Shown in pieces: positions 6,901 through 64,000 of a stretch of 64,000 nt of DNA; position 1 is the stretch's first letter; each line of letters opens with the position of its first letter. Under the pieces are notes generated by a model. It was not told the DNA's origin. It ran no database searches and saw only the letters and a program-made list of their open reading frames with translations. Source of the stretch: a virus. A program made the position numbers and the translations under genes. The stretch is taken from IMG/VR virus record IMGVR_UViG_3300036818_000127, positions 45,418-109,417 of that record; one strand, 5' to 3'.

Positions 6901-7966
6901 CAACTACTGTACGGCCATCTTTACCTACAAGATAGGCCCCATTGACTATTCCAGCAGCAGCCATGATGGCCCGATGCCCATCTTTAAGTGGCTGGACGGG
7001 CCGACCAGAGGCATTGCCTCTATCTTGATCAGACGGCCAGTGAAGAGCCTTATATTGCAGTTTGCTATAGACCCCATTCGCTGGAAGGCTAGCACCCTGC
7101 GGAACTGCAAGGAGTGCAGCAGCCTCTTCTGGATCGAACCTGCTCGGAGACCAATACTTGATAGCAGATCTTGCTATGGGGATAGAATACTGTCCATATC
7201 CATCACTCCGTGAAGTCACAGCCTCGATGGGTGAAATGTCATCATGGGGGTTATCTGTTGTGCCAAGCTCAATGAGGACTTTCTCTGTAGACCGATCTGA
7301 TCGCTGGCCGAATCCCTTCTGGGCAATCACGACGACCTGATCAAACATCTCAAACATGGGGACAGGCTTCTCTTTGTTCTCTACCATCTCAGGCGTGGCA
7401 AAGGGAGTATCAGGGAACCGCAGCACCTTGATGTCGGTGTACCACTGAGAAAGATATGATGCCCCTTTCTCAACGATCCATTGTGGGACAATCCAAATCA
7501 GGACCCCGCCAGGACATAATTTCTTCGTAGTTCGTCTGAGGAAAGTCAATTCTAGCCGCTCGCCGCCGGACTCTTTGTCCCAATCATATGGCGGGTTTAC
7601 GAATGCCAACTGGAACCCGCCATCAAGAGAGTCCCCGCTAGAGATAAGAGACTGGAAGAATGATGCATGCAGGACATCATCTAGAACTTTCCTCGCAGCC
7701 TTTACCCGCGAGATATTGGGCTCGATGCCATGGGTGAGGACTTGAGGGAATGTGTGACAGTAGTGCCACATCTGCTGAATGTGCTCTCTGTATTCCTTGG
7801 CGAGAAGTTCTAAGGCTCTCCCCTTGCCTGCACATGGATCAAGAAACCTCATCTCTTGAGCATCCCCTGATGGGTAGCGGCAACTGAGGTATTGAGCTAT
7901 CATCGATATAACTGGCTCAGGGGTTGGGTAGTACAACCCTTTGACCTGTGATTCTGTCCTAGGCAT
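3968..7966 (-). CDS. DNA methyltransferase-helicase fusion, 1332 aa
   Basis: The N terminus is an adenine-methyltransferase-like domain, with an SAM-binding FLDPCAGKGRALE at about residues 41-53 and the catalytic-type NPPY at 124-127. A superfamily 2 helicase follows, with a Walker-A-like MATGKTYLS near residue 498, DEIH near 822, TGT just after it and the C-terminal QMRQSFRRIHRPKQ near 1150. Two CxxC pairs between about 677 and 755 look like an inserted zinc ribbon. Proteins of this architecture occur on phages and plasmids; DarB-like protection against restriction is a possible role, but this is inference. It is read from promoter copy 2 together with 7979-8338, 12 bases upstream. Confidence 0.8.
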   Translation of the reverse strand: MPRTESQVKGLYYPTPEPVISMIAQYLSCRYPSGDAQEMRFLDPCAGKGRALELLAKEYREHIQQMWHYCHTFPQVLTHGIEPNISRVKAARKVLDDVLHASFFQSLISSGDSLDGGFQLAFVNPPYDWDKESGGERLELTFLRRTTKKLCPGGVLIWIVPQWIVEKGASYLSQWYTDIKVLRFPDTPFATPEMVENKEKPVPMFEMFDQVVVIAQKGFGQRSDRSTEKVLIELGTTDNPHDDISPIEAVTSRSDGYGQYSIPIARSAIKYWSPSRFDPEEAAALLAVPQGASLPANGVYSKLQYKALHWPSDQDRGNASGRPVQPLKDGHRAIMAAAGIVNGAYLVGKDGRTVVVKGFSRKRKVTKVSEDEENIITEKRDSFESSLWCIDMTEGDTLGQLIRIETGPMVGMLSIPHETMSLRSFLDNFGGALTEKLLESNPPLYHSPSQVPWANAAFSRMLRQPLGRQKGFILAIVNAMVGGKDHAPMNRVGEIAEMATGKTYLSLSTLFLGDMDLNGCADMLPSTAKKIELSPAVVMVPEIIAYKWKREAEDTIPNVHAIVVQRIDTPEKSRELRQFDPFWRGEKLSAVGCIERVIKRIDYELQDWRQQYDEAKLHGRPLPQKPCHLVIIPNGTAKLSMAWTLAYRLSPMRTLDANGKVAVQHDEETKLPRLTPCCPSCFAPVKDQARIDRLMKSNPDYKRKKDQIARKKRNGKALSSIEEEMDEDEGAYVTEQELWISAKKHKKRWCGSCGGPLWQYTTGKDFEPKSVLRSGDAVVALPLPDSLGSLPKTVKDTSFRRFSVADYIRKFHSGFFKLLISDEIHQGKEGTALDFARRSLMGACESYLGLTGTLCNGYASSLFPFAWSINPDVRQQFSYDGMREWVDRYGARKTVIKEKKDDLDSGGDGAISKKKSSGRGEEHEMAAFSPNGLPPLFERSAFLELKDVAPYLPPYSEEVDIIPMSGPLEEAYKSFESTITAELAAMLVLGDKRALGSWFQCLRRYPNMPFEETVCSVKKTGYILGTARKLDESEIYPKEQRIIDIIQGELEQDRKVIIYCENTGEHDIQPRYKSLIETHVRPRNGNIPQVAILRSGNTLGREAVLKKHVENGCNVLICNSALVQVGLDLIDFHTIICSEVPTSTSQMRQSFRRIHRPKQTKHTKVIILVYPTMEQRLLLLMSRKMETAFMVEGQLPGEGLVSFGVDEGDSDSSFSIALARQVKEALDSGKNNTADLMAEAEELQRQFKASEEAALARNEYITADADPEQEDMEIPLAGDITTEPLKGSVEPMIIIPVALTQDPWAALRAKRDALKRTRKAKKVAAAVQTNLW

Positions 7967-7978
7967 GACTTATACTCC

Positions 7979-8338
7979 TTATTTCACGCTGTATGTGTTT
8001 GAAACTGCATCAAAGGAAAATACTACAAATGACTGACGTGAGAACCTGACTATTTTGCTTATATGTTCCTGATAATCACTACCTGTATCGCCATCCCGTT
8101 GGACCCTATCAAGTGTCTGGCAAAGCTCATTAAGAGCATTCTTGAGATCTTTTATGGACCTTGCATACCATTGACGAAACCCCTTTGTAGTCTCTGGGAA
8201 TGTACAATAGCCGCTCTCTACAAGGCTCTTGCGGATACTCTCAATTGCACTTGATATTTCTCTGTTTGATCCTTTTCCGTACTGCTTTTCTAAGGCATTG
8301 ATCTCTTTTACCAGTTTTGCAACTTCTGTTTTATTCAT
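7979..8338 (-). CDS. Unknown helical protein, 119 aa
   Basis: It is the first gene after regulon promoter copy 2 and lies 12 bases upstream of the methyltransferase-helicase. The sequence is mostly helical (MNKTEVAKLVKEINALEKQ, IKDLKNALNELCQTLDRV) with a short beta-like end. The gene pairing suggests a partner or antitoxin-like role, but nothing in the sequence proves it. Confidence 0.6.
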   Translation of the reverse strand: MNKTEVAKLVKEINALEKQYGKGSNREISSAIESIRKSLVESGYCTFPETTKGFRQWYARSIKDLKNALNELCQTLDRVQRDGDTGSDYQEHISKIVRFSRQSFVVFSFDAVSNTYSVK

Positions 8339-8388
8339 TTTTGCTTGCTCCTTTGATACTAACTTGACTAACTTCTTGATCTACTAGT

Positions 8389-8417
8389 AGTATAGCATAT
8401 CTTCCATAAACTGTCAA
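8389..8417 (-). promoter_or_regulatory. Regulon promoter copy 2
   Basis: Minus-strand TTGACA at 8417-8412, spacer GTTTATGGAAGATATGC and TATACT at 8394-8389. An ATTGCCCT element lies upstream of the -35 box. It reads 8338 through 3968. Confidence 0.85.
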
Positions 8418-8454
8418 GCATAAAAGAGGTATTTAGGGCAATGTTTGGAAATAA

Positions 8455-8488
8455 GAAAAACTGGAGCAAGTATCGAACCTGCTCCAGG
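8455..8488 (-). terminator. Intrinsic terminator after 8496-9272
   Basis: On the minus strand CTGGAGCA (8487-8480) pairs with TGCTCCAG (8468-8461) and is followed by TTTTTC. A sister copy of this hairpin with the same GGAGCA stem ends the plus-strand operon at 18449-18483. Confidence 0.8.
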
Positions 8489-8495
8489 ATGGGGG

Positions 8496-9272
8496 TTATG
8501 CGGCGACTTCTTCCCTGCTTCCCTCTCTGATGTATAATGAGAGGTCTTTCATTATCTTCTCAAGATCTGGGAAGCAGAGATAGGCGGAAGCTACTAGTGA
8601 GCTGGTTCCATCTGGAGTAAAGGCCCAGACTTCCAGTTCCTCTATCTCTGGGGTTTTAAGGGCACGATCCCAAAGGAATGGTGCCCACTCATCAATCAGG
8701 GGAAATGGACATCTCTTGTCCAAATAGGAGAGGTGAAGCTTGCTGGCCTCTTCTCCTGGAGGGACCATCATAAAAAAGATCGGTCGGCGATCAATCACGC
8801 GGGCCACCTTCTCCGACATCTCGCCTTCCTTTGAAGCCACCTGCCGTAGCTTCTTACTGCCCCCATCTTGGGGAGTAACCTTCTTGACCTTGATAGCCTG
8901 CTGGGGGTCCCAAAGAGAAATGGCGTTGCTTTCAACTAGGGCATGGATTGCCTTGTTGGTCCCAAATTCCGCAAAAGAGCAGGACCAACTTGGAGACATC
9001 CCAGGCATGCGCCCACTTCGATGCATGAGAGCAACTGGCCCGAGATCTTCGATATAGATCTCTCTAATGGATGGCTGGCTCACCAATCCTGCAAAGATAG
9101 CATTCAGGCTTGATCCACTACCCTTCGGGCCAAACATTGAGAGGTAGTATAGCTCGTGCCTTCGTGTATCATCCTGCATGGTTTGCCTCTCCTTAGAGAA
9201 GATAGCCATATTAATGTATGCTTGAAATTGTGCTGACCCTTTATCGAATAGGGTGATCTGACGTACTGACAT
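8496..9272 (-). CDS. Unknown protein, 258 aa
   Basis: AGGAGG lies 6 bases before the ATG at 9272. The protein contains a Gly/Ser-rich FGPKGSGSSLNAIFAG near residues 49-64 that resembles a nucleotide-binding loop but does not fit a strict Walker A. The rest is mixed alpha/beta (IDRRPIFFMMVPPGEE, VWAFTPDGTSSLVASAYL). It follows the annealing-protein gene by 47 bases and ends at a terminator, so a role in DNA replication or recombination is possible by context only. Confidence 0.6.
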   Translation of the reverse strand: MSVRQITLFDKGSAQFQAYINMAIFSKERQTMQDDTRRHELYYLSMFGPKGSGSSLNAIFAGLVSQPSIREIYIEDLGPVALMHRSGRMPGMSPSWSCSFAEFGTNKAIHALVESNAISLWDPQQAIKVKKVTPQDGGSKKLRQVASKEGEMSEKVARVIDRRPIFFMMVPPGEEASKLHLSYLDKRCPFPLIDEWAPFLWDRALKTPEIEELEVWAFTPDGTSSLVASAYLCFPDLEKIMKDLSLYIREGSREEVAA

Positions 9273-9319
9273 GTGGTACCTCCTAGGGGTATCCTGAGAT
9301 ACCCCATCACATAAAGCAT

Positions 9320-9961
9320 TTAAGCCCCTTTACGGTTCGCTTGCACTCTCTTATTTAGTTCCGCTATAAGCTTTACCATATCCCCAAAAGACAATCCTTC
9401 TAAATCAACATCAGGTAAATTAAGCATCTGATGCAGCTTTTTTACGCTCGCAATCTGTTGAACCGTAGCTGGTGCTTCTGGATCATAGGAGGGCTTGCGT
9501 TCTTGACGTTGAACAGGAGCATCGGCCAGCCGCTCGCCTTCCTCTAACTCATCGCCGCAAAACTGAGTTCCATAGCCTAGCCCGACTAGAGCCCTGCCGA
9601 TGGCACCTGTCTCTGCCTTCTCTAGGTAGTCAGGGAAGCAGGCCGCATTCTCGGTTTTAGTGCCTGTTGAGCTACCTCCCTTGCCGTCGGTAACTATTGC
9701 CCTAAAGACTGCAACTCCACGGGCTTTCTTGATAACCTTGTCATAGCGGCGCTTCTCATCATTCCAGACACTAACCTCAGTCTCACACTCTTCCGAGCGA
9801 TTGAGATCGAGTAACTCAGTCGTGATTGTGCCCTCTGGACATTGCTCTCTAAACCATACCAATCGCCACGCAACGGGGAGGTAGTCCTTGGGTCCCTGCT
9901 GAGACTTGAGCTGAATGATATGAGAATTAGGGTTGAACACTTTATCAATGGTAGTATTCAT
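9320..9961 (-). CDS. Putative single-strand DNA annealing protein, 213 aa
   Basis: The middle carries AVFRAIVTDGKGGSSTG, then EKAETGAIGRALVGLGYGT at about residues 115-133. A K/AETxAIGRALxxxGxGT signature is typical of phage and plasmid proteins grouped with Rad52/ERF-like single-strand annealing proteins. The C-terminal tail (about 145-213) looks like a flexible linker plus a short helical domain. The gene sits directly behind the large structured RNA at 9962-10440, whose end forms its ribosome binding site (AGAAAGGACGATATG). The family call rests on one motif. Confidence 0.5.
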   Translation of the reverse strand: MNTTIDKVFNPNSHIIQLKSQQGPKDYLPVAWRLVWFREQCPEGTITTELLDLNRSEECETEVSVWNDEKRRYDKVIKKARGVAVFRAIVTDGKGGSSTGTKTENAACFPDYLEKAETGAIGRALVGLGYGTQFCGDELEEGERLADAPVQRQERKPSYDPEAPATVQQIASVKKLHQMLNLPDVDLEGLSFGDMVKLIAELNKRVQANRKGA

Positions 9962-10440
9962 ATCGTCCTTTCTGGAGACCCATTCCCTTCAGGGATTGGG
10001 AGGAAAGAAACAGCCCGCAGGCTGGATCTATACTGTTCTGTTGCTAGTCCCTTGCGGGAGGGCCTTTTTAGGAGAAAGACCCAGAAAACTCTTGCTCGAT
10101 TGCGAGCCGCCGTGTCTAAGCACGGGTGATATGACCCTTCGAGATGGCAATACAGGCATAGGTCCGAGACCGTCTGCTTCGGCGTGGCAGGTAGTGGTTT
10201 AGACTAGGGTGGCATCCAAACATACTTTCGCTACTTCCACTAGCACATAAGCCTGTGGGTTCGCTATTTCTTAGCCCGTATCGCTGCTGCTTGTGCGGTG
10301 AGTTGCCTCTCCGACCAAGCCCTCTAGACAGGAACTTACGTTGCGCTAGCCGTTTCGCAAGCCCCTAGGATTTATCCAGGGGTTCTTGACTATTTTCTGA
10401 TCCTTCTCTTTGGGAGGGCTCTTTGACGAATCCTCCCGAC
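9962..10440 (-). ncRNA. Large structured leader RNA, copy A
   Basis: This ~480-base stretch has no convincing gene on either strand and many local inverted repeats, such as the minus-strand hairpins CCCTGGATAAATCCTAGGGG and CCCGCAAGGG. Its last ~110 bases on the minus strand match the end of a second element at 46995-47404. Shared pieces are the GCAA-loop hairpin, CCAGCCTGCGGGCT, TTCTTTCCTCCCAA, AAGGGAATGGGT and TCCAGAAAGGA, the last being the ribosome binding site of the gene that follows. I cannot assign it to a known RNA class. Confidence 0.6.
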
Positions 10441-10971: not shown

Positions 10972-11037
10972 GTGTTTTAGGATGGATATCAGGCAATATT
11001 TTATTCTTTCACAAAACTGATGCAGGAACATCACGCC

Positions 11038-11090
11038 TTGACAAGGATACTATAACCAGCTAAACTTATACTATATCTTCCATAAACAGT
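11038..11090 (+). promoter_or_regulatory. Promoter of the 257-aa regulator with an overlapping operator
   Basis: TTGACA at 11038-11043 and TAAACT at 11061-11066 are 17 bases apart. A variant of the regulon core (minus-strand TTTATGGAAGATATAGTATAA) covers about 11065-11088, that is the expected start site and leader. The hexamer in -35 position for that copy is degraded, so it looks like an operator for repression rather than a working minus-strand promoter. Confidence 0.55.
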
Positions 11091-11112
11091 CAGGAGAGAG
11101 AGAAAAAAACAT

Positions 11113-11886
11113 ATGCAAGAAGAAATAGTTACACCCATCCCCAAGGACCATCTAGCACTACTGTCAGGTATGTCCTTGTCATGGATACGCATACTCATTG
11201 ACAGAGGAAGCCTTCCAGCACTGAAGCTTGTCCAGGATGAAGAGACATTAGAGAGTATCCTCGTGCCTTATACTCCGCGTGTCAAAAAGGCAAAGCCCCA
11301 AAGTTTATTCATCGCACCGGATGTGGCTGCGGAATATGTCCAGATACATCGGACAACAGCACATCATATAAAGCAAGGGGAAATGGTTACTCCAGTGCCG
11401 CTTTCCCATCTTTCAAAGCGTGTAGGGATTGGAGTAGAATCGCTCTATAATGCTATCGATCACGGGAACCTCCAGGCAGTAGAGTTTGTTTTCGATGCAG
11501 ATCTACTCTCTTCAAGTCTAGTGCTGTATGTACCCAATTCAGAATCTAGACAGGGGAAAGCACTGTATGTTCTACCTGCTGAAGCAAAGCGATTTGTTGA
11601 AGCAAAACAGCAGCAGCATGCCAAGTTTCTAGCATCCAGGCACACTGAGCCCATGGATATAAATCCTGGATTTGAGCAAGAAGTCCTGAAAGCAGCGCAG
11701 GCTGTGAAGCAAGAACATCCGCAGGGGATAGTTGAGAGGAAGAAAGTCCAGGAGAGGATGACGGTGCCCTCTTATGGAAAGGAACAGATAAAAGCTATTA
11801 AATATATCATGGATCAGCACCTTAATGAGTTTCCGCCACCGAGACGTGGGCCTTATACATTCCTGGCAAAGAAGGAGGGAGAATAG
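11113..11886 (+). CDS. Putative DNA-binding regulator with duplicated HTH-like domain, 257 aa
   Basis: The protein has two similar halves. The first has TPIPKDHLALLSGMSLSWIR followed by ILIDRGSLPALKLVQD; the second has TPVPLSHLSKRVGIGVESLY followed by NAIDHGNLQAVEFVFD. Both resemble a MerR/excisionase-like helix-turn-helix, with a recognition helix ahead of a DxGxLxA turn. The C terminus (about 190-257) is basic. A variant of the shared operator lies across its own promoter, so negative self-control and control of the other copies is a reasonable hypothesis. Confidence 0.6.
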   Translation: MQEEIVTPIPKDHLALLSGMSLSWIRILIDRGSLPALKLVQDEETLESILVPYTPRVKKAKPQSLFIAPDVAAEYVQIHRTTAHHIKQGEMVTPVPLSHLSKRVGIGVESLYNAIDHGNLQAVEFVFDADLLSSSLVLYVPNSESRQGKALYVLPAEAKRFVEAKQQQHAKFLASRHTEPMDINPGFEQEVLKAAQAVKQEHPQGIVERKKVQERMTVPSYGKEQIKAIKYIMDQHLNEFPPPRRGPYTFLAKKEGE

Positions 11887-11887
11887 G

Positions 11888-12235
11888 ATGCCATTCTACG
11901 CCCCAGGTGGACTCAAAATTTACATCCAGGCTATTCTTCAAGAGGGCCTGGATTTTGAGACCGAGCTACCTATAAACTTCCCGCGAAACCTTGAGAGCCT
12001 AGAGGAGCTTCGCGTGATTCATTCTGCGATGATCAAGAAACAGAAAGAGGTCAGTAACCTCTATAACTACCTTATTCTCATTATCGACTCTCATAACCGA
12101 GGGGAGTATATCGGTTCTGTTATTGAGTATATACTTTCCACCAAGCATATCCAGGCAGTCAAGGAATATCTTGGAAAGCTTCAGCTCTGGACAAAAGAGC
12201 TAGAGGACAGAATTAGAATACTAAAGAGCATGTAA
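11888..12235 (+). CDS. Unknown helical protein, 115 aa
   Basis: The ATG at 11888 follows GGAGGGAGAATAGG and begins 2 bases after the regulator gene, so the two form an operon. The product is helical, with a coiled-coil-like stretch (LESLEELRVIHSAMIKKQKE) and a C-terminal KELEDRIRILKSM. Its 3' end overlaps the convergent protease gene by 15 bases. Confidence 0.6.
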   Translation: MPFYAPGGLKIYIQAILQEGLDFETELPINFPRNLESLEELRVIHSAMIKKQKEVSNLYNYLILIIDSHNRGEYIGSVIEYILSTKHIQAVKEYLGKLQLWTKELEDRIRILKSM

Positions 12236-12955
12236 ATCCTGCTGGAGTGCTGCCCAATTGATAGCATTAGGGGCCACTCCATTTGCAAAGAAGTCTAGAG
12301 AGAGTACCCCATAGGACTCATCGCAATACTGGCCCCAGAAGCTCCAGGTCATCTTTTTAAGAGCACCCCAGGTAACTACCGTCAGATAATGAGAGTCCCA
12401 GGCCACCACGTTGCAACAATGTCCGCCCCAACTTCCAGGGGCTCCTCTTCCATGTGGTCCACCGCTAGGCACAGCCCAAATAGCCTGACTCTCTGCTGAG
12501 ATGGGGAGGGCAAGCCCGATGTATACGCCGCCAAACAAGTAGACTGCTGCCTTGATATGAGTATGATTGGTCGGCTCTAAGGCTACATATGAATCAATCT
12601 TGCGGCCAGCGATTCCTGTATGCCTCCAATAATTGAGCACATCTAAGCAGTATGCGCCATTGTCATTGGCACCTGTCTGGGGGTTGTAGCCGCTAACATC
12701 GGAGTAGGCTTTAATGATGTCGCTATCTGAGGGGATGATCTCAGTACTGGCGTTAGCAGTCCATGCCTCTTCCATGTGAGCACTAGAAGAAATTGTGCAG
12801 CAGCCCAGACGGTCATTGGCGAGCATGTTCCAGGTCGAAACCTTTGGGCTCCAGTCCTTTTGAGCAGGGATTGGAGGTAATGCCTCGGGGCGAAGGTAGT
12901 TAGCAAGCTGAAGAGTTCGGTGGTCGTGTTTCGTTGGAAGTTTTCCAAGTTTCAT
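12221..12955 (-). CDS. Papain-like cysteine protease family protein, 244 aa
   Basis: The likely nucleophile region is NDRLGCCTISSSAHMEEAW near residues 47-65 and the His region is GGHCCNVVAWDSHYLTVVTWG near 175-195, the order seen in C1A papain-fold peptidases. A trailing MTWSFWGQYCDESYGVLSLD matches the end of that fold. There is no signal peptide, so it should be cytosolic. The start at 12955 is chosen because AAGGAG lies 8 bases upstream. The perfect 17-bp inverted repeat at 12976-13021 lies just ahead and may control it. Confidence 0.7.
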   Translation of the reverse strand: MKLGKLPTKHDHRTLQLANYLRPEALPPIPAQKDWSPKVSTWNMLANDRLGCCTISSSAHMEEAWTANASTEIIPSDSDIIKAYSDVSGYNPQTGANDNGAYCLDVLNYWRHTGIAGRKIDSYVALEPTNHTHIKAAVYLFGGVYIGLALPISAESQAIWAVPSGGPHGRGAPGSWGGHCCNVVAWDSHYLTVVTWGALKKMTWSFWGQYCDESYGVLSLDFFANGVAPNAINWAALQQDLHAL

Positions 12956-12975
12956 CAAAATTCTCCTTAGATACA

Positions 12976-13021
12976 ATGTTAGAACAAGTCATCCTAATTG
13001 TATCATGACTTGTTCTAACAT
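12976..13021 (-). promoter_or_regulatory. Perfect 17-bp inverted repeat upstream of the protease gene
   Basis: ATGTTAGAACAAGTCAT at 12976-12992 is repeated inverted without mismatch at 13005-13021 across 12 bases. There is no T-run, and the site lies between the protease gene and its upstream neighbour, so an operator is more likely than a terminator. Confidence 0.6.
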
Positions 13022-13043
13022 GTCAGGGAGAAGGGATAAGCGC

Positions 13044-13313
13044 CTATGACATTTCTTCGTAGGCTTGCCACGCCTGATCAACTTGGATGCGGAGCAGACC
13101 AATGGAATATTCTACTTTTGCAATTTTTCGATTGAAGGGCTCCCAGGCAGCGCAGATAGCCTGAACCTTCTCATCAACAGAACCCTTACAAGTAATTCTT
13201 GCTGTCCTTGCAGCATCCTCACCAGCGATTTGAAGCCTCTTCATTTCTTCTTTAGCCATGCTCAAGGACTTAAGTGCTGTCTGGTATGCATAATAAAGTG
13301 TTGTTACGTTCAT
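13044..13313 (-). CDS. Coiled-coil protein, 89 aa
   Basis: The product is helical throughout (YYAYQTALKSLSMAKEEMKR, EYSIGLLRIQVDQAWQAYEEM). It is the last gene of the minus-strand operon that begins near 14305. A GGGAAGGG/CCCTTCCC hairpin lies in the gap before it. No function is recognised. Confidence 0.55.
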   Translation of the reverse strand: MNVTTLYYAYQTALKSLSMAKEEMKRLQIAGEDAARTARITCKGSVDEKVQAICAAWEPFNRKIAKVEYSIGLLRIQVDQAWQAYEEMS

Positions 13314-15355: not shown

Positions 15356-16129
15356 ATGAGTAATATCCCATACAAGCAATGCACAGGACCTTGCAGACAA
15401 GAATATCCTGCAACTACTGAATATTGGTATTCTGAAAAAAGGTCAAAGGATGGATTCAGAAACAGATGCAGAAAATGCATAAAATGGCATCAAAAAGAAT
15501 ACCAACAACAAACAGAAGTCCAGGAGCAAAAAAAAGATTATAACAAAGAGTACTATGGTAGACCAGAAGTTAAAGAACAGCGTAAGGAGTCCTTCAAGCA
15601 ATACAGCAAGGAGTATTATAGCCGTCCAAAAGTTAAAGAACAGCGTAAAAAATATTACAGCCGCCTAGAAGCAATAGAACAGCGCAAGGAGTATTATAGC
15701 CGTCCAAAAGTTAAACAACATAAAAAGGAGTACAACAATCGTCCAGAAGTACAAGAACGACATAAGGAGTTCTTTAAACAATACGGCAAAGAGTACCGTA
15801 ATCGTCCAGAAGTACAAGAACGTCTTCGTGTACATAGGATTAATCGTCGGGCACGCGAACATTCTGTTTTAGGAAAACATAGTCCTCAACAGATTAAAAA
15901 TCAACTTAGGCATCAAAAACATAAATGCTACTATTGTCATAAACGTTTACGGAGGACTAAGGGAAAGTATGTTTATCACATAGAACATACTTTCCCTTTA
16001 AGCAGGGTAGCAGGTACTACTATACCTGCTAACAGCATTGAGTACATAGTGTTAGCTTGCCCTGCTTGCAATTTAAACAAAGGAGACAAATTTCCATGGG
16101 AGTATCCAGAAGGGGGAAGACTACTATAA
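15356..16129 (+). CDS. HNH endonuclease with degenerate internal repeats, 257 aa
   Basis: The N terminus has a zinc-finger-like segment (CTGPCRQEYPATTEYWY then CRKCIKWHQKEY). Residues ~60-165 hold about seven degenerate copies of an R-P-x-V-K/Q-E-Q/R-x-K-E-Y-Y unit, a basic charged linker. The C terminus is a clear HNH domain: CYYCHKRL, then HIEHTFPLSR and LACPACNLNKGDK. Such proteins are often homing endonucleases that spread by cutting DNA. The gene lies between two identical 52-bp elements, which may have exchanged during its arrival. Confidence 0.85.
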   Translation: MSNIPYKQCTGPCRQEYPATTEYWYSEKRSKDGFRNRCRKCIKWHQKEYQQQTEVQEQKKDYNKEYYGRPEVKEQRKESFKQYSKEYYSRPKVKEQRKKYYSRLEAIEQRKEYYSRPKVKQHKKEYNNRPEVQERHKEFFKQYGKEYRNRPEVQERLRVHRINRRAREHSVLGKHSPQQIKNQLRHQKHKCYYCHKRLRRTKGKYVYHIEHTFPLSRVAGTTIPANSIEYIVLACPACNLNKGDKFPWEYPEGGRLL

Positions 16130-20353: not shown

Positions 20354-21235
20354 TTAGGATACATTGATGCGCAGCATCCGGCCAGCTCCAGACTCAACCT
20401 TCGAGACCTTTAGATACTCCCGCTCAGAAAAGATATCTCCAGTTTGTTTGGCTGACAGGATTACCAGACCAACATTCTGGAGCTGCCGCATGATTCCAAC
20501 AATCTGGCTTGGTCGAACACTATGGCCGTGGAGAGCAAGAAGACTACTCACCTCATGTAGCGTTATGCCCAGACCTTCAGAGGGTAGCATATGAAAAATA
20601 GTTTCTGCCATCTTGCGTTGCCCAGCATTGCTGCCTAGTTGATATACATCAGCAGTAGGGGACAGCCCCCACTTCCCTAGAAAATGAACATCAAACTGAC
20701 AATCATCATCTCCCTTCTGCATACAGGCTATCTCTTGGACAGCAACCACCTCACTATACTTCTTACCTGCACCTTCAATGGCACCATAGAGGATAGGGCA
20801 GAGATGACGATGGCTATCATAGATGATGTGGATACCGAGCCCAGTGAGAGGTTCATATTGAAAAAGGGGTGGAACAATCTCTGATGAGGCATGATTTAGC
20901 TGCTGATGGGCCATGCGCATCGTGAGGAGAAGATCTCTTGCACTATGAATGCCCTCTAGGAGATGAGAGCAAACATGGCTAGTAAAATTATTTGTAATAA
21001 AGTATTCTCCATACAGATACAAGAGAATACTAGGTGCAACCCCAGTTACTTTTGATGTGGCAGTAACTCCCTTCAACAATACCTCATCAGGATAGGTGCG
21101 AGTAACCAGCGGGATGTCCGCACCTGTCCCTGCTATTGAACTTCGATATATTCCAAGTGCAACCTCGCCGTACCTATCTGCTAGAAACTTCTCCCAGGTC
21201 GCAAAAATAAGACCATGCACGTCTGCTACCTCCAT
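20354..21235 (-). CDS. H-NOX-like heme sensor with C-terminal winged-helix-like domain, 293 aa
   Basis: The N terminus (HGLIFATWEKFLADRYGEVA) and the LLEGIHSARDLL segment with His97 match the H-NOX fold, where that His binds heme iron. Residues 139-143, YDSHR, fit the YxSxR heme-propionate motif. CMQKGDDDCQFDVHF then ends the domain. Residues ~210-293 look like a winged helix (SSLLALHGHSVRPSQIVGIM), an unusual partner. H-NOX proteins sense NO or O2 and commonly act with a histidine kinase; one lies 65 bases upstream. The protein has no transmembrane segment. Confidence 0.7.
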   Translation of the reverse strand: MEVADVHGLIFATWEKFLADRYGEVALGIYRSSIAGTGADIPLVTRTYPDEVLLKGVTATSKVTGVAPSILLYLYGEYFITNNFTSHVCSHLLEGIHSARDLLLTMRMAHQQLNHASSEIVPPLFQYEPLTGLGIHIIYDSHRHLCPILYGAIEGAGKKYSEVVAVQEIACMQKGDDDCQFDVHFLGKWGLSPTADVYQLGSNAGQRKMAETIFHMLPSEGLGITLHEVSSLLALHGHSVRPSQIVGIMRQLQNVGLVILSAKQTGDIFSEREYLKVSKVESGAGRMLRINVS

Positions 21236-21300
21236 TGGCTCATACTGCTAACAAAAACTATGTTACACAGGAATTATACACTCCTGTGTAAGCTATAGTA

Positions 21301-22371
21301 TCAGAGGATGTCAATACCTAGCTGATTGCTAGCCATTGAAGGACAGAAGAGCGGCAACGTAAAATAGAAGCTACTCCCTTCTCCCTCTATCCCGCTCGAT
21401 TCAACCCAGATTTGTCCGCCCATGTTTTCTACCATGCGGCGGCAGTTGTACAGGCCAAGTCCCGTCCCGTCAACATGCCTTTCATCATGCAGTCGTGAGA
21501 ACTTCTGGAAAAGCTGACTGGCCTTCTCTGGGTCAATTCCATATCCTTGATCTTTAATGCAGACACAGGCGGCACCTTCATTGATGCCAATCTTAACAGA
21601 AATAGGCGTCCCTTTGGCTGCATACTTGAATGCATTATGTAAGAGGTTACGTAGCACACGCTGGACCTGCGTAATATCGGCTAGGACTTCTACTCCTGTC
21701 GGGATATGAAGATCAACAAGGGGATGTTCAAAGGTGTAAATATATCGAAGCAGTTCTTTTACCACTTGGTCAAGATGGAATGCTTCTAGCTGAGGCGGGG
21801 ACACATCATCGATGGCAGTCATAGCATCTCGAATATTTGAAGTAAGCCGAGCAACCTCATCACAGCTATAACTTGCCTGATCAAGAAACATTTGCTGCTC
21901 AGGAGCAGAGAGCTTTGCCCCATACTCTCTCAAAATACCGATTGACCCAATTGCCGTCGTCAATGGTGTCCTCATGTCATGATTGAGGTTTGCTAGGAAC
22001 TGGTCCTTGATCTGGTGAAACTCCTGTAGTCGGTCCATGGCAGATCGAAATGCTCCAATGGAGATAACGAGGATGAGGTCCGTGACTGTCCCTGAAATGA
22101 AAACGGCCAGGACATGAATAGACCATCCCTGATATACGGTGAGCAATACTATATGTATCCACAGTAGTCCCCACTCAAGAGCCAGTGCTTCTTTCCAGCT
22201 AAAGACCCAGCAGATGAACAATCCAAGGATCAGTAAAATAGAGGAAAAACCCCAATCGTGAAGAGAAATAATAAATGCTTCTTCTATGATAAATATGAAG
22301 ATCGCACTGAAGAAGCGAACACATATAGGCAATTGACGCAAATATAGAACATGATTTCTAATGGCGTCCAT
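21301..22371 (-). CDS. Membrane sensor histidine kinase, 356 aa
   Basis: Residues ~15-107 contain four to five hydrophobic segments (FFSAIFIFIIEEAFIISL, IHVLAVFISGTVTDLILVIS). The phospho-acceptor is His131 in FLANLNHDMRTPL. The ATPase domain has NLLHNAFKYAAKG, IKDQGYGIDPEKA and GTGLGLYNCRRMVENMGG. No response regulator is adjacent. It lies upstream of the H-NOX gene on the same strand, so the likely pathway is gas sensing passed to this kinase. Confidence 0.85.
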   Translation of the reverse strand: MDAIRNHVLYLRQLPICVRFFSAIFIFIIEEAFIISLHDWGFSSILLILGLFICWVFSWKEALALEWGLLWIHIVLLTVYQGWSIHVLAVFISGTVTDLILVISIGAFRSAMDRLQEFHQIKDQFLANLNHDMRTPLTTAIGSIGILREYGAKLSAPEQQMFLDQASYSCDEVARLTSNIRDAMTAIDDVSPPQLEAFHLDQVVKELLRYIYTFEHPLVDLHIPTGVEVLADITQVQRVLRNLLHNAFKYAAKGTPISVKIGINEGAACVCIKDQGYGIDPEKASQLFQKFSRLHDERHVDGTGLGLYNCRRMVENMGGQIWVESSGIEGEGSSFYFTLPLFCPSMASNQLGIDIL

Positions 22372-36385: not shown

Positions 36386-36396
36386 ATGCATCAAAA

Positions 36397-36656
36397 ATTG
36401 CAGTACCCTCAAGGCGGGTCGATGGATTGCAACTCGACAGGAATGCGCGGCCAGGTCTCTAGCATGATCAATTGCAGTACCCTCAAGGCGGGTCGATGGA
36501 TTGCAACTGGAATATCCTCTCCAGTAGATATCAACATACATCGGATTGCAGTACCCTCAAGGCGGGTCGATGGATTGCAACTTAGAAAGTCATTCGAGAG
36601 ACACTTCCCTGATTTTGTATTGCAGTACCCTCAAGGCGGGTCGATGGATTGCAACT
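36397..36656 (-). CRISPR. CRISPR array 1: four 38-bp repeats, three 36-nt spacers
   Basis: Identical 38-bp repeats begin at 36397, 36471, 36545 and 36619 (period 74). On the plus strand each starts ATTGCAGTACCC and ends GGATTGCAACT. Spacers occupy 36435-36470, 36509-36544 and 36583-36618 and differ from one another. Read on the minus strand the repeat starts AGTTGCAATCC, contains a GACCC...GGGT stem and ends TACTGCAAT, the more usual CRISPR direction. It would then be co-transcribed behind 36827-37201 and end at the 36348 terminator. No cas genes are nearby. Confidence 0.85.
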
Positions 36657-36826
36657 GCCGCAGCATATAAATCTTGAAAGACCCTACCACTCAACTTTTA
36701 TCGCATGAGCCCTCTCTTGATCTTCTCAGCGCGGTGATTTCTTTTGTTTTGCTAAGGAAAAGCATACCAGATCTGTCAAGTTTCGCAAATTGGTTTTTGT
36801 TAAAATATGGCGTCGATTTGCGAGGA
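36657..36826. other. Gap between array 1 and the next gene
   Basis: No gene or repeat is supported here. The stretch is AT-rich near 36775-36815 and could hold the leader side of array 1 if the array is read from the minus strand. Confidence 0.3.
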
Positions 36827-37304: not shown

Positions 37305-37336
37305 AAAGAGGGATAGTGTAGATGCTATCCCTCTTT
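37305..37336 (-). terminator. Terminator after array 2
   Basis: AAAGAGGGATAG at 37305-37316 pairs perfectly with CTATCCCTCTTT at 37325-37336. On the minus strand TTTCTTTTTACCC follows. The hairpin is a close relative of the one flanking array 1. Confidence 0.75.
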
Positions 37337-37337
37337 A

Positions 37338-37586
37338 AATATACCCTCAGATGGATCGATGGAAATGAAAAGTATTAGTCACCTAATTCAGTTGCAGTAT
37401 CCTCAGATGGATCGAAAAGTAAATCTGAACTATCGACTAAAGTAGTTGCAGTACCCTACCAACGGGTCGAATTGGTTAAAGTAGAGAGTATACCCCTATA
37501 CAGTTGCAGTACCCTCTAACGGGTCTAAGTGCAGAAAGCGAGTATCAAACATATGAATACCGTTGCAGTATCCTAGCTCGGATCAA
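37338..37586 (-). CRISPR. CRISPR-like array 2 with covarying ~23-bp hairpin repeats
   Basis: Five units recur every 54-59 bases, with plus-strand anchors GTTGCAGTA at 37391, 37445, 37503 and 37562 and a degraded first unit near 37340. On the minus strand each repeat is GAYCC, a 6-7 base variable loop, GGRT and the tail ACTGCAAC. The stem changes in step: GACCC with GGGT, GATCC with GGAT. Spacers of 31-36 bases are unrelated. The minus-strand distal unit is degraded, as is common at the end of CRISPR arrays. It lies behind the 37631 gene. Confidence 0.65.
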
Positions 37587-37630
37587 CAGAGCTAGGATAC
37601 CAGCACTCCCTCTATCTGTCAAGTCGGATT

Positions 37631-45554: not shown

Positions 45555-45652
45555 TAGTGTGGCCGATCCTTTCTATGTATTAGCCCAATTGTACTTTAAA
45601 ATTTGCAAGAAAGCAATCAATGAAGACTTGAAAAAATGAAAGATTGAAACCC

Positions 45653-46784: not shown

Positions 46785-46994
46785 ATGAAGTGCCACATAT
46801 GCCTGCGAGAGCAAGGCATCATCCCATCTCAACATGACAATGACCAGCACACCCTATGTGATGAGCATAGAAATGAGGCAGCATCAACCTTTTATGTCGG
46901 CAAGCTTGCAAGAGAGCAGGCAGGTCGCTTATATGCAGGACATCACGATCTGAATAGGCTACTTCGATTGGTGGGTAGACAGTCAGGGACCTGA
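46785..46994 (+). CDS. Small zinc-finger protein, 69 aa
   Basis: MKCHICLREQGIIPSQHDND then QHTLCDEHR gives a CxxC...CxxH zinc site. The C terminus is a basic helix. GGAAAGGACTTCTT precedes the ATG. It is the last gene before structured RNA copy B. Confidence 0.6.
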   Translation: MKCHICLREQGIIPSQHDNDQHTLCDEHRNEAASTFYVGKLAREQAGRLYAGHHDLNRLLRLVGRQSGT

Positions 46995-47404
46995 TCCCTT
47001 AAAAGGGATGGGCTTGTAGAGATGGGGGTAGTTTTTGCCCGTCTTCTCTCTAGCTTCACCTGACCAGACCCAGCCAGGGCTGTTCCTAGAAGGCTCATAG
47101 AGAGCGGGAAACAGCTATCGGGCTACGTTAGAGGCGAAATTAGGTACCATAGGATGCGAGGGCCAGTCCGATGCTCTACGGTTGCAGGTTAAACAGGTTT
47201 ACGAGGGTTAGTGCCAGTGCTTGCAACGACAAACCGCTTTCTAACTTCGTCGAGGCCCCCATTACCTGGGAAACCAGTGGGGTTTAGCCGTTCCGTCATA
47301 AAACGGCTCCCCGCAAGGGGATTACTCCTAAACTAATCCAGCCTGCGGGCTACTTCTTTCCTCCCAACCACTAAAAGGGAATGGGTTTCCAGAAAGGATA
47401 ACTG
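46995..47404 (+). ncRNA. Large structured leader RNA, copy B
   Basis: This ~410-base gene-free stretch is rich in local pairing (CATTACCTGGGAAACCAGTG, CCCCGCAAGGGG). Its last ~110 bases match copy A at 9962-10440, including the GCAA-loop hairpin, CCAGCCTGCGGGCT, TTCTTTCCTCCCAA and AGAAAGGA just before a start codon. The 5' parts are much less alike. Two copies upstream of unrelated genes and on opposite strands argue for a functional RNA rather than a shared gene remnant. Confidence 0.6.
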
Positions 47405-54549: not shown

Positions 54550-54578
54550 TTGACAGGTAGCAATGGTTATGCTATGCT
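54550..54578 (+). promoter_or_regulatory. Promoter of array 3, overlapped by a palindrome
   Basis: TTGACA at 54550-54555 and TATGCT at 54573-54578 are 17 bases apart. ACAGGTAGC at 54552-54560 is repeated inverted as GCTACCTGT at 54575-54583, covering both promoter boxes, so a repressor could block it. Transcription would start at the first repeat of array 3. Confidence 0.7.
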
Positions 54579-54584
54579 ACCTGT

Positions 54585-54775
54585 ACAGCCCGTCTGGGAT
54601 TGAAAATCTCTGATCTCTACTACTCCGATAGGAGCCTATACATCCCGCTAGCGGGATTGAAACATTTCATCAATTGGTCAGAAATGACCAAGTTAAAACG
54701 GCGTGCCGTCTTGAAACACCTGCCAGTCTCCTTTTGACTGGCAGTCTTTTTGTACCCGATTAGAAGGATTGAAAC
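54585..54775 (+). CRISPR. CRISPR-like array 3: hairpins with a TTGAAAC tail
   Basis: Four units carry the tail (A/C)TTGAAA(A/C) at 54599, 54656, 54710 and 54768, spacing 57, 54 and 58. The hairpins in front differ in sequence but keep a stem: CCCGTCTGGG, ATCCCGCTAGCGGGAT, ACGGCGTGCCGT; the fourth, ACCCGATTAGAAGG, is weak. Spacers of 33-36 bases also contain small hairpins (CTCCGATAGGAG, TTGGTCAGAAATGACCAA). A promoter starts exactly at unit 1 and a terminator follows unit 3. ATTGAAAC is a common CRISPR repeat end. The fourth unit may simply be a ribosome site. Confidence 0.55.
54720..54751 (+). terminator. Intrinsic terminator inside array 3
   Basis: CTGCCAGTC at 54720-54728 pairs with GACTGGCAG at 54736-54744, followed by TCTTTTT. 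It would limit the array transcript to about 165 bases. Confidence 0.8.
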
Positions 54776-56202: not shown

Positions 56203-56243
56203 AGCCCTTTAGAGATTAGATAAAAACTGGTCTCTAAAGGGCT
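56203..56243 (+). terminator. 13-bp perfect hairpin abutting promoter copy 12
   Basis: AGCCCTTTAGAGA at 56203-56215 pairs perfectly with TCTCTAAAGGGCT at 56231-56243, whose last base is the first of the -35 box. It probably ends the upstream operon, although no long T-run follows. Confidence 0.6.
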
Positions 56244-59606: not shown

Positions 59607-61298
59607 TCATGCTTTAAATCCTCGTGCAAACTCTTCCCATGTTGTCCGCTCTGCTTCTGGTATCTCCTTTTGCTTCTGCTTCGATCTGAGCTGTAAGAAG
59701 GGAAGCTTGCGCACAATATTGATACCACTCTGCTGTCCTACATCTGTTGTGTACCCACATTCAATGCAATGAAAGAGGTTCTTATCTTCTTTGTCGAAGT
59801 TCTCTTTGCTCACACAGCCACATTGCGAACAAGTGGAAGCCGTGTAAGCACTGCTGACTTTACGGAGTGGTGTTAGACCAGCAATGTCTAGTTTGGTCGC
59901 TAGGAGGTCCTGGAGCTTCTGATATTGCCTTCTCTGGAGTATACGGTTGAAGGCTTTCCCCTTCCCTCCAACACGCTTTTTCGGGGCAATGTAGCTTAGA
60001 TCTTCTACGATCACCTGGGACTGATGTGTACGGGCCATCTCGACAATACTATTAGCTACTTGGTGGACATGGCGGTCTGCAATCCGTGCGCGTCTCCTAT
60101 CCCCTTTCGTTGTTTTTCCCTTTTTCTGCTTGATAGCTATATTCTTTTCAATCGCACCAATTAATCCGTTTAATTCATCGGTACTAACATTGAAAGTTTC
60201 AATGACTTCCTTCCCGTCCAGGGAAACGACAGCCCCAGATGCTAAATAAGAAATAGATCGGTCAATACCTAGGTAGGTCGCTGGCTTTATTCGCTCAGGT
60301 CTGGGGAACTGGAAGGCGACATGGAGCTGGTACTTATCTCCATATTTCATCAGTTTAGCAGACACAGGCCAAGCAGGCTTTACACTAGTATCGCCTGACC
60401 TCTGCGGAAGGAAGGCATGTTTAGTAAAACGTAGCATGTTCTCATGCCACCTTCCCATTTCTAGAGGGACAAGAATGGAGCGAGTCCCATTTCCAAAGGA
60501 CCTGACCTCCTGATACCTGCCCATTCCAAGATGGTAATCCCCCAAGATAGTGTGAGTACTTGTACTGTACCGCTTCAGTCCTGTTTTATGTTCCTGGAAA
60601 CCTTTGTTCCGCATGTAAATATTCTCAGGTTCACGGATATCGATGTATTGTCCATCTATATCGATCCTTCTTCCATGATTGGACAATTCTCCGATAACAT
60701 ACAGTCTCACATAGAATGTGCGCGTCTCTGGATTGTAGAAAATACGGAATCCCTGATCAGGCATGCTATTCCCGAAAGATAAGGGCACCAGCCCTCGCTG
60801 TCGTGTGCGGAGCAGTTGGTCGCGGAGTGTATTCTCTTCTTCTAGGTCATCTGAGATAGTCCGCAGACCTTCTAGTGCGGCCTCTCGCTTTGCATCACGG
60901 TTATCTTCTTCAACCCTGTTAGGGTAGGATGGCTTCTGCTTTTCTGTCAATGACAGTTCAGCGAAACTCAAGAGGGTGCTAGCAATATCTGACTTCATCG
61001 ATGCACGCAGCCGGGCCTCTAGAGGTTCAAGTAACTGGTCCAGATCTGGTATCTTGTTCGTTCGGAAAAGAGCAGTTTCTAATGTCCTAGCATTCGTTAG
61101 CTCTTCTCCATTGCTCTCGCGTACTGCAAATACAGCCATTGCATGCAATTCCTCTGCTGTATAGCTAGAGAAGAAATCAAGGATTGATGTGTAGGCTCTT
61201 GTGTAATTCTGCAATGCCTCATCAAGCACTGCTCTGATGTGTTTCGTGGGGTTGTGGATGGTGAACACTGCTGTTCGGTGAATGTGTTTTCCTGGCAT
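59607..61298 (-). CDS. TnpB/Cas12-like RuvC nuclease, 563 aa
   Basis: The RuvC parts are intact: Asp346 in YLGIDRSISYL, Glu432 in VIVEDLSYIAPKK, and Asp519 in GYTTDVGQQSGINI. A zinc finger (Cys490, Cys493, Cys511, Cys514) sits between motifs II and III, as in TnpB and Cas12. The protein is longer than most TnpBs (about 350-450 aa) because of ~150 extra residues before residue 340. No TnpA transposase and no obvious IS200/IS605 ends are seen. GAAGGAGGGCATGCC precedes the ATG. A structured RNA candidate and the TGCAAC array are read away from it. TnpB and Cas12 proteins cut DNA with a guide RNA. Confidence 0.8.
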   Translation of the reverse strand: MPGKHIHRTAVFTIHNPTKHIRAVLDEALQNYTRAYTSILDFFSSYTAEELHAMAVFAVRESNGEELTNARTLETALFRTNKIPDLDQLLEPLEARLRASMKSDIASTLLSFAELSLTEKQKPSYPNRVEEDNRDAKREAALEGLRTISDDLEEENTLRDQLLRTRQRGLVPLSFGNSMPDQGFRIFYNPETRTFYVRLYVIGELSNHGRRIDIDGQYIDIREPENIYMRNKGFQEHKTGLKRYSTSTHTILGDYHLGMGRYQEVRSFGNGTRSILVPLEMGRWHENMLRFTKHAFLPQRSGDTSVKPAWPVSAKLMKYGDKYQLHVAFQFPRPERIKPATYLGIDRSISYLASGAVVSLDGKEVIETFNVSTDELNGLIGAIEKNIAIKQKKGKTTKGDRRRARIADRHVHQVANSIVEMARTHQSQVIVEDLSYIAPKKRVGGKGKAFNRILQRRQYQKLQDLLATKLDIAGLTPLRKVSSAYTASTCSQCGCVSKENFDKEDKNLFHCIECGYTTDVGQQSGINIVRKLPFLQLRSKQKQKEIPEAERTTWEEFARGFKA

Positions 61299-61386: not shown

Positions 61387-61415
61387 TTGACAACTTGATT
61401 AGCGGCTATTATACT
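61387..61415 (+). promoter_or_regulatory. Strong promoter reading toward the TGCAAC array
   Basis: TTGACA at 61387-61392 and TATACT at 61410-61415 are separated by exactly 17 bases (ACTTGATTAGCGGCTAT), unrelated to the regulon spacer. It lies 89 bases from the nuclease start and points the other way. Confidence 0.75.
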
Positions 61416-61421
61416 CTGCTC

Positions 61422-61735
61422 TGTAATCTTCGGATTGCTTGGGCTCGTGAGCTACGGCTCGGTAGTTGCAGGCCCAATCCCTGGGAGAGTGCCGTATGAC
61501 TTCTGATTCCCTGTTGAGGGATAAGAAGCGAGTCATGGTCATATAGGGTACATTCGTGTGCCTTGTGACTATGCCTTCTCTGATTCCCGATATCGGGAAA
61601 AGGAAGCTTGACACCTTCTGGAGAGAACAACGCCACAAAACCGGAAACGGTACTCGCTTCGCGGTGGCTCCCTTTGGGCCAACTCTCATGTGCAGCACGA
61701 TGAATGAGCAGGGGATGTTGCAACTCTGCTAATCT
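61422..61735 (+). ncRNA. Structured RNA candidate between the nuclease and the array
   Basis: No gene fits this stretch. It folds locally well: TTGGGC/GCCCAA around GAGCTACGGCTC, the palindrome TTCCCGATATCGGGAA inside a larger CCTTC/GGAAG pairing, and CGCCAC/GTGGC around CCGGAAACGG. It contains GTAGTTGCAGG near 61462, whose GTTGCA is the reverse complement of the array motif TGCAAC, and ATGTTGCAAC near 61716. A guide scaffold or tracr-like role is possible. It starts at the promoter above. Confidence 0.5.
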
Positions 61736-61793
61736 ACTGATGCTTTGATGGGATACACTGCTACAGCCTGGCAGTGGGACGGCTCACTCTCAT

Positions 61794-61905
61794 GTTGCAT
61801 TAGAACTTGTTGAGACGCTCCTTTACAACTGAAGGAATGAAGCCTTTCAGTATTTGTTGCATTATGCTGAAATGCGGTTCTACCTGCTCATAGCTAGTTG
61901 TTGCA
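61794..61905 (-). repeat. Inverted-orientation copies of the array motif
   Basis: GTTGCA occurs at 61794, 61856 and 61900, spaced 62 and 44 bases. These are the reverse complement of TGCAAC, which takes over from 62026 onward. The orientation switch marks the start of the main array. Confidence 0.5.
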
Positions 61906-62025
61906 TAGTTGATGAGCAGGTAGGTGTCTATAAGAGAGTCTGTGCAGCTATGTAAGAGGATATATAGCGCAGCATTGCTTGTAACCAATAAGGATAGATG
62001 ACAACATAGAGTATAGGCTGTCGAC

Positions 62026-64000
62026 TGCAACCCGTTACTTGATATGTCAGAGTGTAACTTAGATGGATCTATGCAACCACGGGCTTTTATTTGCAATTGC
62101 AGCAAGCAATATGGCAAGATGCAACAAATGGACAATTTATATGATCCTGCAACCATCAGACAGGGCTACAGCCTGCTCGCTAACCATGCAACCTTGGGAG
62201 AGTTCTGATCGCAATACTGAAGTAGTAGGTGATAATTGCAAGAGGCTGACTGGAAGAGGGAGGGCGCAGCTAGTGCAACCTCAAGCAGTATCAGGGATGC
62301 AACTGATGTGATTGGAGAGGAATGCAGCAACTAGGCACTCCCATCGAGATGCAATACTGGCGATCTATCCATGTAACCATCTTCGTCGGTCCTGCATGCA
62401 ACGTTCTTGACCCTTACTGCAACAAGCAGTTCGCAATCGCAACTTGTATGGTTTAGGCTAGTATTATCCATGTAACTATTGAACGCTGTCCGGCAATGAT
62501 GAGCAACGGTGAAAGGCAAAGTCTAGTGTGCTGCAACTATCTTATAGTCTAGACTAAATGCAATGAATATCAAGGTAAGCCTCGCAACCATTTCAATGCA
62601 ACTAAGAGAAGTATAGGTAGTATAGTGCAACTCACAAATGACGGCAACATCAAGAAGTCACAGTATGCAACCAAGCTACGCGGGACCTTGCAACAACGGG
62701 CAATAGCTATATGCAACAAGAATGTCATATTGGACAGTGCAACAACGAGTAGAAGATTTGCATGCAGCACAAATGAAATACTACATAGCAACATATGGAC
62801 CAGCGATCAAGGGAACTGCAACAAGAGGGCGTTGTCTGGAGGATGTAACACAAGGAGCTAGATAGCGATTGCAACTTTCATAGAGTCACGCAACTGTAGT
62901 AGATGCAATGGTACAAGCTCGTTCACAACTAACATGACACTGCAACAAGCAAGAGACACTGCAACAAAAAGGATATAGGGACAATTGCAATAATCTACGA
63001 TGGCCCCATGCAACCTGATAGAGGAAGATATTCAATAATTGTAACTGAAACCTCCGCAACTATAGAATATGCATTCTAGACTAAGAATTATGCAACTAGT
63101 TGGTTGCTAAGGCATAATGCAGCTATCAGCGGCTAGATATGCAACTTACTTTCAACACACTCTTGCAACATCCATCTCGACATCTCAATTCTATCAATGC
63201 AGCGACTTTGATGTTCCTTACATGCAATGAGTAGAGAAAATGCAACAGCAAAAGAGTGAAGAACGCAACTATCATTGACCAGCTATGCAACTATGGTTCT
63301 CATATCATAATAGTTTATACGCAACTTCTGTAGAGGCATCATGCAACATGTATTGAAAGCATTGCAACCTCATCTGACAGCATCCTGATGCAACATGATT
63401 TCTCTTTGTACATGCATCTCGCAACAACTGGCAATGACATCTACAACGGTAGAGGAATGGGGCATAGCATGCAACTCAGGCAAGTTATCACTGCAACATG
63501 GGGAAGTCTTGCGATATCAATGCAACCAGTGTTCACATACGTGGAAGGAATGCAACATGTTCAATAATATGCAGCCTCAATGGATTTTATGCAACTATTA
63601 GGTAAATAGAGAGCTATGCAACTGATTAACCCTATTCACTCAATATGCAACAAATAGGTGGTACTGCAACACTGATGAGGGTTTTGCATCATCATACCCA
63701 AGATGCAACTATGGCTTTTTGAGGCAACTACGAACATGTCAAATATATGTAACGATCAAGAGAGAACCTAGTGCAACCATGGGCGGGCATGCAATGAGTA
63801 GACATAGCAACAACTGAGTGCAACATTCTTGATCGAGAGAAATGCAACATAAGGGTTATCATAGCAATAGCCAAGCATGAATGATGCAACCATGACAGAG
63901 CAAGCAACACACATGTGGTACATTGCAGCATTGGAAAGCAACTAGAGGGGAAATAAGCAGCAGGTAAACGGAATAATAGATGCAACAATATCTGTAGGAC
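62026..64000 (+). repeat. TGCAAC quasi-periodic array, runs off the window
   Basis: By hand count GCAAC occurs 58 times on the plus strand in under 2 kb, usually as ATGCAAC, TTGCAAC or (A/G)TGCAAC, while the reverse complement is almost absent. Adding one-base variants (GCAAT, GTAAC, GCAGC) fills most gaps, and steps are mostly 15-30 bases, commonly 22-26; four steps in a row at 62644-62713 are exactly 23. The intervening segments, typically 16-21 bases, look unrelated to each other. No credible gene is present. It has the layout of a guide array with a minimal repeat; an array of protein-binding sites is the alternative. Confidence 0.8.

Follow-up and report, generated by a model that had tools for sequence, protein, structure and literature searches.

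In many type I and type III CRISPR systems, the repeat carries the motif ATTGAAAC at its 3′ end, which becomes the 5′ handle of the crRNA (PMC8482600). Furthermore, it is established that phages imitate such repeats in RNA, whereby single mimics act as RNA anti-CRISPRs (PMC10651486). A related case is CreA, whose degenerated repeats retain the 8-nt handle as well as maturation by Cas6, while the divergence of these repeats blocks recombination (PMC8501985, PMC9458426). The RNA anti-CRISPRs known so far are single mimics that came to light because they resemble a known repeat. Should arrays of degenerated mimics exist, they would escape the published finder, and one transcript could jam several CRISPR systems. 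In the open-licence literature, we recognised no description of a single phage transcript that combines different repeat mimics as an array.

Here, we analysed a stretch of 64,000 nt (hereafter the window, to which all coordinates refer unless stated otherwise) from the virus record IMGVR_UViG_3300036818_000127. A first-pass annotation, made from the letters alone, had described positions 54550–54775 as a promoter-driven array of different hairpins joined by TTGAAAC tails and had given it a CRISPR-type reading. This reading is supported in part, namely for a defined, predicted small RNA with repeat-like tails, to which the promoter, the terminator, the hairpins abutting the handle and a second locus point.

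The virus record and its genome

The window comprises positions 45418–109417 of a virus record of 109,417 bases. Since both ends of this record have 127 bases in common, the genome is considered circular with a size of about 109.3 kb. It codes for a tape measure protein, a major head protein, a head protease, a portal and a large terminase, as well as a family A DNA polymerase, and the record is that of a tailed phage. The terminase search returned few near relatives; three of the six viral loci are 83–85% identical, and G006, one of these relatives, spans 91 kb and likewise has a 127-base repeat at its ends. The phage also carries a haem-NO-binding (HNOB) protein beside a histidine kinase (20354–22371, minus strand), which is unusual phage cargo, and a 39/78-base tandem repeat (15606–15758) within the ORF of an HNH protein. 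A HEARO RNA (Rfam RF02033, 102.9 bits) lies at 46982–47265 on the plus strand. No large ORF follows it directly, meaning that it is without the usual nuclease gene, and no HEARO match was found in 14 control genomes.

Promoter, units and terminator of array 3

The locus at 54550–54775, referred to as array 3, is composed of the following features, listed together with the ORF downstream:

54550..54578, plus strand: sigma-70-type promoter TTGACA-17-TATGCT, 10/12, with extended -10 TG
54553–54562 / 54575–54584, unstranded: perfect 10-bp inverted repeat ACAGGTAGCA / TGCTACCTGT, candidate operator around the -10 box
54589..54606, plus strand: unit 1, 3-bp hairpin CCC-GTCT-GGG, then tag ATTGAAAA (54599–54606)
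54607..54643, plus strand: spacer 1, 37 nt, with a 4-bp hairpin CTCC-GATA-GGAG at 54623–54634
54644..54663, plus strand: unit 2, hairpin CCCG-CTAG-CGGG, then tag ATTGAAAC (54656–54663)
54664..54697, plus strand: spacer 2, 34 nt, with a 7-bp GAAA-loop hairpin at 54674–54691
54698..54717, plus strand: unit 3, hairpin ACGG-CGTG-CCGT, then tag CTTGAAAC (54710–54717)
54720..54752, plus strand: intrinsic terminator CTGCCAGTC-TCCTTTT-GACTGGCAG followed by TCTTTTT, in the place of spacer 3
54768..54775, plus strand: fourth tag ATTGAAAC, in the gap from the SD (AGAAGGA) to the ATG of P0002
54776..55339, plus strand: orphan ORF P0002, 187 aa, possible partner or unrelated neighbour

The promoter and terminator of the first-pass annotation are thus present, and its estimate of a transcript of ~165 bases agrees with our prediction of ~167 nt, which runs from a start near 54585, placed from the position of the -10 box, to the 3′ end at the terminator. 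The predicted fold of this RNA has a z-score of -4.3 and is more stable than 200/200 shuffles. The palindrome described across the promoter was recovered as the perfect 10-bp inverted repeat, and repression at this candidate operator is possible. The genome holds 12 sites of the form TTGACA-N-TG-n-TAT-nn-T, ten of which have the spacer TTTATGGAAGA in common; the other two, which do not contain TTTATGGAAGA, are the promoters of array 3 and of the similar array 2 described below. Genome-wide, ten near-identical promoters of the form TTGACAGTTTATGGAAGATATG[C/A]TATACT were observed, for example at 56243, 39713, 32369 and 18523, and these probably constitute one phage regulon.

The predicted RNA contains not a solitary unit but three, set 57 and 54 nt apart, and the base of the stem abuts the 8-nt tag in all three. 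As in CRISPR arrays, the repeats are evenly spaced and the spacers unique. The tail spacing of 57, 54 and 58 reported earlier is borne out by tag starts at 54599, 54656, 54710 and 54768. However, the 58-base step leads to a fourth tag that lies beyond the terminated RNA and has no hairpin. The first tail does not read TTGAAAC as had been claimed; its actual letters are ATTGAAAA. The hairpins had also been called unrelated, which does not apply to units 1 and 2: they share 10 nt, with GGGATTGAAA and the TACA-CCCG start in common. Unit 2 and the fourth tag have the 12 nt GGATTGAAACAT in common. Near-identical direct repeats are nevertheless absent from array 3, where the only recurring parts are the tag and the stem-loop form. 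The hairpin of spacer 1 is not unusually stable (z -0.94), whereas spacer 2 is self-folded (z -3.45), which is odd for a guide. Overall, the anatomy is that of a constant handle and a variable stem, with no 5′ half and one self-folded spacer.

Arrays 1 and 2 elsewhere in the genome

Two further arrays in the window bear on the interpretation of array 3:

37305..37622, minus strand: array 2, promoter TTGACA-17-TATCCT, four units of a hairpin plus ACTGCAAC, and an intrinsic terminator
36388–36659, probably minus strand: array 1, four identical 37-nt repeats with a 74-nt period and 37-nt spacers

The units of array 2 are spaced by 59, 58 and 54 nt, and a 4-bp stem abuts the tag in 4/4 units. This confirms that its period is similar to that of array 3 (57 and 54 nt), with a different tag, and the anatomy of array 3 is that of array 2 with another tag. 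The -10 box of array 2 is covered by a 12-nt inverted repeat whose sequence is unlike that of array 3. Because the two inverted repeats differ in sequence, one common repressor for both promoters is unlikely, and this candidate was rejected. A 145-aa ORF, unrelated to P0002, follows array 2.

Array 1 is probably read on the minus strand, an orientation suggested by its likeness to array 2. The 3′ part of its repeat on this strand has the same stem as array 2, with ACTGCAAT. The units of array 2 match the hairpin and tag part of the array 1 repeat, and the stems carry paired changes (ATCC/GGAT versus ACCC/GGGT). Since array 2 resembles the stem and tag of the array 1 repeat, it looks like a degenerated CRISPR-like repeat array. 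Array 1 itself is a CRISPR-like mini-array in a phage; no cas genes were seen beside it, and no matching CRISPR repeat was found in the genomes searched.

To place these loci against chance, the tags were counted and scanned for. TTGAAAC occurs 12 times over the window compared with 9.2 expected and is thus not enriched overall; the unusual feature is the cluster. A strict test, in which TTGAAA had to follow a stem of 4 bp or more, detected two of the three array 3 units, and such a pair arose in 3/120 simulated strands. A general scan for 4-bp stems with tags alike in 7/8 positions found array 2 with four units and no other three-unit locus, missing array 3. In the relaxed scan, a stem of 3 GC pairs or of 4 pairs was accepted, the last seven tag bases had to be alike in six, and three units at a spacing of 50–64 were sought on both genome strands. 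Arrays 2 and 3 were then the sole loci in the genome, no locus was found in the phage contigs G006, G001 and G004 (146 kb), and 24 + 400 = 424 simulated 109-kb strands gave 0 loci, although these rules were tuned after both arrays had been seen, which makes array 3 on its own look more surprising than it is. The promoter-to-terminator design common to both loci is a stronger argument than the scan counts.

Searches for related sequences

Among ten sub-threshold Rfam matches at array 3, five are CRISPR repeat families with ends at 54663 or 54775. They score 13–16 bits against a cut-off of 39–50, and one of two control stretches gave a weak CRISPR match as well, so these matches lend weak support. 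Array 2 gave two sub-threshold, weak matches to CRISPR-DR19. A weak match to CRISPR-DR8, at 18.9 bits and below the cut-off, was observed at 45616–45650 (minus strand) just upstream of a strong promoter-like site; it is possibly a solitary repeat, or chance.

Unit 2 had 0 matches in viral contigs, and 18 nt of it gave three single matches in genome contigs, none within an array. Repeat searches in samples of 398 genomes from the phylum of L005 (Paenibacillus) and 396 genomes from that of L007 (an Acidobacteria MAG) returned five and three short single matches, respectively, which were taken as chance from the tables. None of the collections searched yielded a relative of the array 3 locus.

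The downstream ORF P0002 gave no match to toxin families, ToxN-like families or solved structures (PDB), and no homologue was found in phages, plasmids or viral contigs. Its structure model has a pLDDT of 40, which is too poor for the fold to be judged. P0002 and P0001 gave no result in six terminase-bearing viral records, nor did P0001 in viral contigs, where the ORFs at 54776 and 55639 next to array 3 likewise had no relatives.

A Cas12f-like protein and TGCAAC arrays

At 5 kb from array 3, the window codes for a protein of 563 aa that is similar to Cas12f, CasX and TnpB in its C-terminal half. It matches PADLOC Cas12f at 1.6e-21 and NCBIfam TnpB at 1.3e-19, the latter below the cut-off. This gene and the arrays with TGCAAC units are located as follows:

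59607–61298, minus strand: 563-aa Cas12f-like protein
61388–64000, continuing into L002 from 1 to about 625, plus strand: TGCAAC-unit array, units about 24 nt apart
L003 about 11000–13100, minus strand: TGCAAC-unit array, units about 24 nt apart
L019 about 7600–10250, minus strand: TGCAAC-unit array, units about 24 nt apart

The repeats of Cas12f systems have TGCAAC at their end. Of the 70 TGCAAC in the window, 44 fall in its last 3 kb. Upstream of each of the two TGCAAC arrays of the phage genome lie a promoter-like sequence and a structured ~230-nt stretch. By eye, the two stretches look homologous, with the 21 nt ACTCGCTTCGCGGTGGCTCCC in common; a search of viral contigs with a 21-nt scaffold piece gave no result. 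From their sequence, the TGCAAC arrays look like guide arrays in which minimal repeats follow a tracr- or omega-like scaffold, and the Cas12f-like protein, encoded divergently from the array in the window, is the likely user of those guides. Among the window ORFs scanned, which are part of the phage ORFs, type I/III effectors, Cas1, Cas2 and Cas6 had no match. Regulator-type matches only were seen among 64 small window ORFs, namely PADLOC CARF3 (two members, best 2.8e-07) and CasR (5e-04).

Possible function of array 3

We tentatively favour the reading of array 3 as a set of degenerated CRISPR-repeat mimics, a multi-unit RNA anti-CRISPR acting as a Racr-like or CreA-like decoy, which suits the anatomy described above, and regard it as possible rather than probable. 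Each unit would have kept what Cas6 and Cas5 need of a type I/III repeat, namely a hairpin that ends where the 8-nt 5′ handle starts, and would have lost the remainder of the repeat. The RNA would be made during infection, and the Cas6 of the host would bind or cut it at every hairpin. The resulting products, consisting of the handle, a self-folded or random 'spacer' and the next hairpin, could then occupy Cas6/Cascade or type III complexes without a useful guide. The divergence of the units would keep recombination from deleting the array, and a broader set of Cas6 proteins may be hit as a result. Several observations count against the mimic reading: the stem of unit 1 is only 3 bp, the stricter scans miss array 3 as a triple, the rules of the relaxed scan were tuned on the two arrays, the Rfam scores are far below the cut-off, and no matching host repeat, protospacer or homologue was found in the collections searched. 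In a bolder and doubtful version, the RNA would be a polyvalent anti-CRISPR that combines several different mimics with self-folded dead spacers in one transcript. Arrays 3 and 2, with the handles ATTGAAAC and ACTGCAAC, respectively, would then jam two different CRISPR systems of the host, and the same phage carries a Cas12f-like nuclease of its own with long minimal-repeat arrays. The variable hairpin with a constant 8-nt tag is a design rule that can be used to search for more such loci.

A bona fide CRISPR array was rejected, as the repeats are not identical. A mini guide array with degenerate repeats, in which the 37- and 34-nt stretches would serve host CRISPR complexes or the Cas12-like enzyme of the phage as guides against rival phages or for gene control, seems unlikely to us. 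Spacing and lengths suit crRNAs, array 1 of the same genome has four identical repeats with 37-nt spacers, virus-borne mini-arrays are known (PMC6858448), and the phage carries the Cas12f/TnpB-like protein. However, the tags of array 3 are unlike the TGCAAC of the arrays beside the Cas12f-like gene, and spacer 2 is self-folded. The spacer-match search proposed by the first-pass annotation yielded nothing above chance-level matches in the phage collection, 0 matches in viral contigs for a 20-nt piece of spacer 1 and 0 protospacers in four phage records; no protospacer was found in the collections searched. Within the phage, two 10/10 seed matches of spacer 1 were observed, the first near the promoter at 32369 and the second at 7651, while spacer 2 has one seed match outside the window. 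These were taken as chance, because the first is CT-rich and duplex energies to 11 phage leaders are not beyond those of shuffles. Seed matches to the promoter region of array 3 itself are no better than shuffles either, which also speaks against CreA-like self-targeting.

The order of promoter, repeats, Rho-independent terminator and ORF is the layout described for type III toxin-antitoxin modules (PMC5086642), and the fourth tag abuts the ATG of P0002 and has the 12 nt mentioned above in common with unit 2. The three units might accordingly be an RNA antitoxin or sponge for P0002, which would recognise GGATTGAAAC in the RNA and at its own ribosome-binding site, with the terminator setting the RNA:protein ratio. 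We consider this improbable, since the units are not near-identical repeats and P0002 has no match to a ToxN-like family or solved structure and no homologue, its predicted fold being too poor to judge. Moreover, the 145-aa ORF behind array 2 is unrelated, and its leader was read as being without a tag. A similarly small probability is given to an ordinary multi-hairpin RNA, either an sRNA or an attenuated leader of the 54776 operon, in which TTGAAA tails cluster by chance. TTGAAAC is common in this A+T-leaning genome, the stricter scans fail to single out array 3, and an unrelated sRNA is among its best Rfam matches, which are weak. On the other side, the second locus has the same design, three evenly spaced abutting hairpin-tag units occurred in 0/424 simulated strands under the tuned rules, and the duplex energies to the 11 leaders reveal no antisense role there.

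Comparison with known systems

The type III toxin-antitoxin systems ToxIN, AbiQ, CptIN and TenpIN (PMC5086642) resemble array 3 in having a promoter, a repeat RNA, a terminator and an ORF, whereas their near-identical 34–50-nt repeats and ToxN-fold nuclease are not seen here. The virus-borne mini-CRISPR arrays (PMC6858448) are cas-less arrays in viral genomes, a description that fits array 1. Their repeats are identical to those of the host and their spacers are targeting ones (PMC11656645); in contrast, array 3 has non-identical repeats and no target was found.

Racr (PMC10651486) is likewise phage-encoded and intergenic, has its own promoter and yields a small RNA imitating the repeat hairpin and handle. 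It is solitary and closely matches a known repeat, whereas the predicted transcript of array 3 combines three degenerated units for which no cognate repeat was found. Repeats that occur in clusters, as well as candidates whose flanks are similar, are set aside by the Racr finder. CreA of the CreTA modules (PMC8501985, PMC9458426) has divergent, recombination-stable repeats that keep the 8-nt 5′ handle, and some CreA end at a terminator; in array 3, too, degenerated repeats carry an 8-nt handle behind a putative Cas6 site in 3/3 units. CreA lies within host CRISPR-cas loci and has one repeat or two, plus a spacer that matches the target promoter, whereas the phage arrays have three or four units and no such match. 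Among the readings considered, the CRISPR one is the best, at somewhat under an even chance, and array 3 would then be a case of repeat mimicry or of degenerated ectopic repeats.
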